33,950 bases of DNA, from positions 1 to 33,950 of the forward strand of contig DYEP01000170.1 in assembly GCA_020725675.1 (NCBI GenBank), written 5' to 3'. The position numbers were made by a program, and so were the translations under genes. Below the pieces are notes generated by a model. The model was not told the DNA's origin. It was given only the letters and a program-made list of their open reading frames with translations, and did no database searches. This document shows, piece by piece, positions 15,046 through 16,527 of this stretch; within the stretch, counting starts at the first letter, position 1; each line of letters starts with the position of its first letter. This DNA comes from Symbiobacterium sp. GTDB lineage: Bacteria > Bacillota > Sulfobacillia > DUSP01 > DYEP01.

Positions 15046-15075
15046 ACAACACAAAAGAGGGGCGATGCCCCTCTT
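15046..15075 (-). terminator. Terminator of the rubrerythrin-cupin unit
   Basis: A 9-bp perfect stem with a 3-nt loop (arms at 15055-15063 and 15067-15075) lies 15 nt beyond the cupin stop. On the minus strand it is followed by a T-rich TTGTGTTGT. It probably ends the minus-strand transcript that includes rubrerythrin and the cupin. Confidence 0.75.
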
Positions 15076-15090
15076 GTGAGGAATTGCTAT

Positions 15091-15471: not shown

Positions 15472-15960
15472 TCAAGACTTCAAGAGGCTGTCGAATGTCC
15501 GTGCATGTTGTCTTTCCTGCCGGCCCACGAACTCAAAATACGTAGCGATCTCTTCAAAGCCTTCGCTCCTGGCGATTTTTGCGAATTCAGGGTACATGCT
15601 CTCGTTTTCATAACTTTCTCCGTCAAATGCCGCCTTCAGGTTCTCCTCAGTGCTACCAAGACCTCCGAGCCAGGCGAACAGTGACAATGCGTGGGCGGTC
15701 TCATCGCTTGCAGATTTGGCGAATGCGCTTGCAGCTCCTTGTTGGCCGGCGATCTCCGCGAGCATGGTAAAGGCGGTATACTTTCGATTTGCCGAAGACT
15801 CTCCGGCAAACGCCTTCCACAGGTTCTGTTCCGTGGCAGTACCTTTCAGATTGGCAGGCGGGACAAAGGGGGAGAACTTCCTGGCGCCACATACAGGACA
15901 GGATTCGGGAGCACTGGATCCAATGGCCACATGGTAGCATACATTACACTTCCACAACAT
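15472..15960 (-). CDS. Reverse rubrerythrin (N-terminal rubredoxin-like domain)
   Basis: The protein is 162 residues from the ATG at 15960, which has a GGAGGA site. The rubredoxin-like iron site comes first (C5, C8, C21, C24) and the ferritin-like di-iron four-helix domain follows (GESSANRKY, SASDETAHAL, FVGRQERQHARTF). That order is reversed relative to classical rubrerythrin and is known from clostridia, where such proteins reduce peroxide and protect from oxygen. An upstream in-frame ATG at 16047 would add an unlikely N-terminus. It sits immediately downstream of a PerR-like gene on the same strand and behind a palindrome shared with that gene, pointing to peroxide-regulated expression. 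Confidence 0.92.
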   Translation of the reverse strand: MLWKCNVCYHVAIGSSAPESCPVCGARKFSPFVPPANLKGTATEQNLWKAFAGESSANRKYTAFTMLAEIAGQQGAASAFAKSASDETAHALSLFAWLGGLGSTEENLKAAFDGESYENESMYPEFAKIARSEGFEEIATYFEFVGRQERQHARTFDSLLKS

Positions 15961-15991
15961 CGACACATCCTCCTTATAATTAATTACTTGA

Positions 15992-16006
15992 TAGTAAATA
16001 TTACTG
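15992..16006 (-). promoter_or_regulatory. PerR/Fur-like operator upstream of rubrerythrin
   Basis: The 15-bp element TAGTAAATATTACTG contains the palindrome AGTAA-N3-TTACT and lies about 32 nt before the rbr start. The same element, differing mainly in the 3-nt spacer, occurs upstream of the PerR-like gene at 16471-16485. Its TAA..ATTA core resembles the Bacillus PerR box. It would overlap the likely -10 region on the minus strand. Confidence 0.6.
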
Positions 16007-16034
16007 TATTGCGGCAAAAAGAAAGGGTTCGGCA

Positions 16035-16451
16035 TCAATGGCGGCACTCCGGGCAGATACCATAGATGTTAAGCTCGATCTTGGACATCTCATACCCCGT
16101 CTTCGCTCTGAGGTTCTGTGCCACCTCTGTAAGGTCCACCCCAGCCTTGTGAAGATCCCTGACGCGGCCGCAGCGCTCACAGCAAAGGTGGATGTGGGGG
16201 CTTGTGTCCGCATCGTAATGCGCTGCTTTCTCACCTACGTGGAGCCGTTGAACTAGTCCCGCCCGTTCCAGTATTCCGAGCGTAGTATAGACGGTGTTGA
16301 AGCTTATGGCGGGAAACTCCTCTTTGACCTTTTCCCAGATCGCCTCAGCAGTGGGATGGGCCCGTGTCTCACAAAGCATACGGTAAATCGCCATACGCTG
16401 GGGAGTAACCTTAAGTCCCTTTTCTCTTAGTGTCTCCGCCACATTTGCCAT
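16035..16451 (-). CDS. perR: Fur-family regulator, PerR-like peroxide sensor
   Basis: This 138-residue Fur-family protein has an N-terminal winged helix (LKVTPQRMAIYRML; SFNTVYTTLGILERAGLV) and a C-terminal metal-binding dimerisation domain. Structural zinc cysteines are in CCERCG and CPEC. The regulatory metal region PHIHLCCERCG with following acidic residues resembles PerR. I prefer PerR to Fur or Zur because the gene adjoins rubrerythrin and both carry the same palindrome. The start has only a weak Shine-Dalgarno sequence. The element at 16471-16485 sits 20 nt upstream of the start, consistent with autoregulation. Exact metal and signal remain inferred. Confidence 0.8.
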   Translation of the reverse strand: MANVAETLREKGLKVTPQRMAIYRMLCETRAHPTAEAIWEKVKEEFPAISFNTVYTTLGILERAGLVQRLHVGEKAAHYDADTSPHIHLCCERCGRVRDLHKAGVDLTEVAQNLRAKTGYEMSKIELNIYGICPECRH

Positions 16452-16470
16452 TCAGTAGCCACTCGCTATA

Positions 16471-16485
16471 CAGTAATCATTACTA
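16471..16485 (-). promoter_or_regulatory. PerR/Fur-like operator upstream of the PerR-like gene
   Basis: CAGTAATCATTACTA has the palindrome AGTAA-N3-TTACT. Read on the minus strand it is TAGTAATGATTACTG, matching the rbr-upstream element (TAGTAAATATTACTG) at 13 of 15 positions. It lies 20-34 nt ahead of the start codon, a position suited to autorepression. Confidence 0.6.
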
Positions 16486-16527
16486 TCTGATTAGCATTAT
16501 TACACAACACCGCTCACGTGTCAAGCG

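Follow-up and report, generated by a model that had tools for sequence, protein, structure and literature searches.

In Bacillus subtilis PerR, residues H37, D85, H91, H93, and D104 are the ligands of the regulatory metal, cysteines 96, 99, 136, and 139 form a structural Zn site, and the protein is autoregulated. In C. acetobutylicum, a clostridial PerR occurs together with a reverse rubrerythrin. The box consensus of B. subtilis PerR is quoted in PMC545781 (Rodionov et al. 2004) as TTATAATNATTATAA. Table 7 of that paper lists a predicted site of another kind, AtCAGTAATtGTTACTGgT, at -36 of the perR-rbr-rdl operon of Desulfovibrio vulgaris, and sites were predicted before rbr2 in Desulfovibrio as well. 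According to the paper, sites fitting the B. subtilis consensus were absent upstream of such genes in delta-proteobacteria, and the PerR regulons described there are mainly local and variable.

Here, we describe a locus with two boxes of this kind in a window of 33,950 nucleotides (the whole stretch of DNA that was analyzed) from a Symbiobacterium sp. The window is contig C149 of a genome of 2,563,426 bases in 253 contigs, which is 99.17% complete. A gene for a PerR-like regulator is followed on the same strand by genes for a rubrerythrin and a small cupin protein, and a palindrome precedes each of the first two genes (Table 1). We consider it very likely that these palindromes are the operators of the PerR orthologue encoded between them, through which it would repress perR, rbr, and the cupin gene. 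From the sequence and positions of the box pair, the ligand residues, the neighboring genes, and the conservation in relatives, we infer binding, repression, and a response to metal and peroxide. The reduced, metal-loaded dimer would occupy both the box immediately behind the perR -10 hexamer and the one within the rbr promoter, and would repress all three genes by hindering RNA polymerase at either box. Peroxide would oxidize the histidines of the metal site and so release the protein from the boxes, upon which the peroxide-reducing rubrerythrin would be switched on, with perR itself being autoregulated.

Table 1. Genes and predicted regulatory elements of the perR-rbr locus, in positions of the window.
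Feature	Position	Strand	Basis or remark
Rrf2-family gene	17512-17102	-	On the directly upstream side of perR, with the ferredoxin gene
Ferredoxin gene	16932-16528	-	Upstream neighbor of perR
Predicted perR promoter, sigma-70-type TTGACA-17-AATAAT, TG before second hexamer	16496-16524	-	Consensus match only
Predicted PerR-type 7-1-7 operator of perR	16471-16485	- (reads TAGTAATGATTACTG)	Sequence, genome scan, relatives
PerR-like Fur-family regulator, 138 aa	16035-16451 (ATG at 16451)	-	Pfam FUR, PDB match, ligand residues
Predicted PerR-type operator of rbr	15992-16006	- (reads TAGTAAATATTACTG on +, CAGTAATATTTACTA in gene direction)	Sequence, genome pattern scan
Rubrerythrin, 162 aa	15472-15960 (ATG at 15960)	-	Pfam RUBY_RBDX (residues 3-28), Rubrerythrin (residues 46-159)
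Cupin-domain protein, 115 aa	15091-15438	-	Pfam Cupin_2; 33 nt downstream of rbr
Terminator-like hairpin past the cupin gene	15050-15078	-	Consensus match only

At the level of box and operon, the locus resembles that of Desulfovibrio, which is a different taxon: both have boxes of the same type (7-1-7, with AGTAAT-type half-sites) close upstream of perR or rbr. For the D. vulgaris operon, however, a single site is listed in Table 7, whereas perR and rbr each have one here. With B. subtilis PerR, the regulator shares the metal-ligand residues, the 7-1-7 architecture of the box, and, as we predict, autoregulation, but the half-sites differ at positions 2 and 3 (TAGTAAT here, TTATAAT there), the recognition helix reads SFNTVYTTL rather than SVATVYNNL, and the predicted regulon is smaller than that of B. 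subtilis. The likeness to clostridial PerR lies in the anaerobe-type target, a rubrerythrin with an N-terminal rubredoxin domain, and in the best-matching protein model (NF052545); the regulator, however, falls under the cut-off of that model.

The perR box lies immediately 3' of a strong promoter match, which agrees with the consensus at 11 of 12 positions and was the best of 5 sites found by a promoter scan of 2.8 kb. If transcription starts 7 nt past the -10 hexamer, the box would span about +5 to +19 of the transcript. The rbr box lies within the 74-nt gap between perR and rbr and overlaps a weak promoter-like TTGCCG-18-TATCAA, which was seen by reading the sequence and was absent from the sites of the promoter scan. 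AAGGAGG (15969-15975) precedes the rbr start codon. The encoded rubrerythrin has its rubredoxin-like domain at the N-terminus, the reverse order; in the second rubrerythrin of the genome (C1:8401-8748), this domain is C-terminal, and no box is found near that gene. The cupin gene is probably co-transcribed with rbr, and the hairpin behind it is the probable end of the transcription unit. The gene order perR-rbr-cupin is kept in 2 other loci (L029/L150, which look alike, and L107), and the small cupin protein may join the peroxide response, since its gene follows rbr in all of these. The ferredoxin and Rrf2-family genes were not detected by tblastn in the loci of 74 relatives, which covered 1.5 to 3 kb of flank and less at contig ends.

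In the notation of the Fur family, both elements are 7-1-7 boxes, TAGTAATNATTACTA. They are identical at 13 of 15 positions, the mismatches being two of the three central bases, and lie at -20 to -34 (perR) and -32 to -46 (rbr) of the start codons; the initial annotation of the window thus gave their sequences and coordinates correctly and rightly placed both just upstream of the starts. Read in gene direction, they are oppositely oriented, which carries little weight because the box is near-palindromic. Paired as a 7-1-7 palindrome, the half-sites match at 6 of 7 positions in the perR box and at 5 of 7 in the less symmetric rbr box. The exact pattern TAGTAANNNTTACTG occurs twice in the genome, both times at this locus, while 0.17 occurrences (from base composition) or 0.08 (from a first-order Markov model with the statistics of the window) would be expected genome-wide by chance. 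The perR box is also the sole exact AGTAATNATTACT of the genome, and the rbr box is one mismatch off it. When 2 mismatches were allowed, TAGTAANNNTTACTG gave 41 and 46 sites genome-wide against 82 and 75 for the reversed control; as this is below the control, only the near-perfect pair is informative.

The protein encoded between the boxes belongs to the Fur family (Pfam FUR, 105.8 bits against a cut-off of 23.1, 2e-30), and its best PDB match is B. subtilis PerR (2fe3, 2e-31). In the alignment, it carries H, D, H, H, and D at PerR positions 37, 85, 91, 93, and 104, and cysteines at positions 96, 99, 136, and 139. Among NCBIfam models, the PerR model NF052545 matched best, with 154.3 bits against a cut-off of 180 bits; by this cut-off, the protein would not be a named PerR, which, for an equivalog model, appears compatible with a PerR in the wide sense. 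The genome holds 3 Fur paralogs, one before feoB (C169), one before znuA (C88), and that of the window before rubrerythrin, as one would expect of a Fur, a Zur, and a PerR, respectively. As the other two adjoin feoB and znuA, the regulator of the window is the PerR candidate. The adjacent rbr links it to peroxide defense and sets it apart from the Fur and Zur paralogs. Ligand residues, neighbors, and the nearest solved structure all bear out its earlier description as PerR-like.

In the tree, the regulator belongs to a clade with 99% SH-aLRT support, which comprises six rows once thinned. All 7 relatives of 55-63% identity (L029, L030, L031, L151, L154, L155, and L156) have a box of 11 to 13 of 14 matching positions at -30 to -41 of perR, with a TTGAC-type -35 ahead of it as judged by eye. 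Three loci (L150, L152, and L153) were left out of this set because they appear to repeat L029, L030, and L031 from a second collection; L030, L031, and L151 are near kin, of which thinning at 85% keeps one. The partial perR of another relative, outside the seven (L047, 68% over 66 aa), is preceded by a box of 11 of 14. More broadly, the 120 nt ahead of perR were scored in 73 loci that were not thinned for relatedness (74 were fetched, one with too little upstream DNA): 37 loci had a box matching at 11 or more of the 14 positions and 19 had one matching at 12 or more, compared to 1.1 and 0.1, respectively, expected from dinucleotide shuffles. As a control, the upstream regions of the other ORFs in these loci, where 150 aa or longer, reached these scores in 4 of 285 and 0 of 285 cases. 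In the remaining 36 of the 73, nothing upstream of perR scored 11 of 14 or better. In L112, L117, L119, and L121, the box lies between the -35 and the -10 instead (by eye). Two relatives (L030 and L031) have a pirin-like gene, recognized by eye from its translation, behind perR in place of rubrerythrin. One locus (L109) contains both half-site types, as its perR (at 1483) has a Fur-like box, AGATAATCATTATCA, and its rubrerythrin-like gene has TAGTAATCATTATCT.

Within the flank of 1.5 to 3 kb, a rubrerythrin-like gene was found behind perR in 24 of 74 relatives, and in only 2 of these (L105 and L109) is it preceded by another box with 11 or more matches of 14; the two-box layout of the window is therefore uncommon. 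The closest relative, L029, has no second box before rbr, and in none of 5 further relatives with rbr behind perR (one of which, L150, looks like L029) does a site before rbr score 11 of 14 or better. It could thus be proposed that only the perR operator is functional and that rbr is read through from the perR promoter, with a box that is degenerate or there by chance. The 22 of 24 relatives that lack the second box fit this proposal, as do the short gap between perR and rbr on one strand and the limited symmetry of the rbr box. However, this box differs from the perR box at only 2 of 15 positions, the two are the sole exact matches in the 2.56 Mb, and in L105 and L109 the rubrerythrin-like gene likewise has a box of its own. 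We regard a functional operator at perR alone, with read-through into rbr, as unlikely.

Less probable still is that a different member of the Fur family in this genome, Zur or Fur, acts through the boxes. Their core, GTAATNATTAC, is that of the Gram-positive Zur box, and the consensus TAAATCGTAATNATTACGATTTA, as PMC545781 gives it for Zur, has its inner 11 positions in common with the perR box; two further Fur paralogs are encoded in the genome, as noted above. Yet the boxes of the window lack the bases at the outer ends of the Zur box, the genome scan, with up to 2 mismatches allowed, found nothing box-like near either the znuA locus (C88) or the feoB locus (C169), and in relatives, the box goes with perR-like genes. 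That the boxes are AT-rich promoter DNA without regulatory meaning is highly improbable: while the motif with 2 mismatches does not exceed its reversed control in the genome, an exact pair in a single locus stands against the 0.08 to 0.17 occurrences expected genome-wide, and relatives have kept the box ahead of perR.

In the Fur-DNA structures presented in PMC4506495, Tyr56 and Arg57 of the recognition helix read bases; aligned on the TVY motif, they fall at 60 and 61 in the numbering of B. subtilis PerR, by which the regulator of the window has Asn57 and Thr61. Position 57 was compared in 104 proteins, thinned at 85% to 84; a box passed the three thresholds used in 53, 35, and 17 of these. 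At the loosest threshold, a G at half-site position 3 accompanied Asn or Asp at 57 in 19 of 33 cases, compared to 2 of 20 otherwise (Fisher p 0.0006), and p was 0.004 and 0.035 at the two stricter ones. On a quick tree of 52 labeled rows, built with the trait column left in, the association with Asn or Asp at 57 amounted to only 2 independent pairs over supported branches and 5 over all branches, without significance. In addition, L109 and L172 carry Asn57 and yet have Fur-like boxes before perR. As a specificity residue, Asn57 was thus lost after correction for relatedness and remains a lead only. Rather doubtfully, PerRs with Asn or Asp57 (SFNTVY, SPNTVY, and SFDTVY) might constitute a widespread group in anaerobes that reads xAGTAAT, with G at half-site position 3; if this tentative idea were true, they would form a second PerR specificity class beside the TTATAAT class of Bacillus.

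With up to 2 mismatches, AGTAATNATTACT had 37 sites in the genome, 2 of them those of the window, and 60 in the reversed control. Behind the other 35, no peroxide-defense gene was recognized by eye from the translations; a Pfam scan was made for the neighbors of the C49 site only. Among 33 of these sites, 27 are inside an ORF, in a few cases close to a start that is uncertain, and 6 fall in gaps between ORFs; the remaining 2, on C190 and C251, are both inside ORFs. The best site outside the locus, C49:20758-20772 (L079, site at 1501), is a one-mismatch TAGTAATTATAACTG flanked on one side by an ArsR-family gene with DsrE-like genes behind it and on the other by a HARE-HTH gene; it is a weak lead, but the best candidate for a third target that the genome offers. 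Seven genomes of relatives showed no enrichment, with 38 sites of the motif at 1 mismatch and 41 in the reversed control. Five of the 38 are perR boxes, and 15 of the other 33 were read in context; the second exact site of G170 is within a coding frame. A contrary result comes from 2 of these genomes, both of one genus (L180, G338:C21:8525-8537; L186, G285:C8:99362-99374), where a one-mismatch near-box closely precedes an RnfD-like gene (by eye), in the gap between it and a divergent oxidoreductase-like gene; there may be a further PerR target here. In the genome of the window, the predicted regulon consists of perR and rbr-cupin only. The small regulon proposed initially is thereby supported in a very small form, while the enrichment upstream of other redox genes, suggested along with it as a check, was negative outside the locus; this limits the regulon and leaves the two local sites unaffected.

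The same box type was found upstream of PerR-like genes in other groups, among them MAGs of Syntrophobacterales, Desulfobacca, and Omnitrophota. Of the original reading as a lineage-specific PerR operator, the predicted operator is well supported by sequence, given a PerR-like regulator, a perR box abutting a promoter match, and a box conserved in relatives. "Lineage-specific" is too strong, as the type was predicted for Desulfovibrio in 2004 (PMC545781) and is present in other groups. A search for the exact core strings of the box, light on subscription journals, returned no bacterial paper beyond that one. Since the motif type is in print there, the boxes described here are a new member in another lineage, and the locus adds a local and largely expected case to a motif type previously predicted in other anaerobes. 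For a poorly sampled lineage, an order covered here by 3 genomes including that of the window, it provides a concrete candidate operator and a minimal regulon of the oxidative-stress repressor. It also adds to the evidence that PerR-like boxes outside Bacillus often have AGTAAT half-sites, because of which scans with the Bacillus consensus would miss them.
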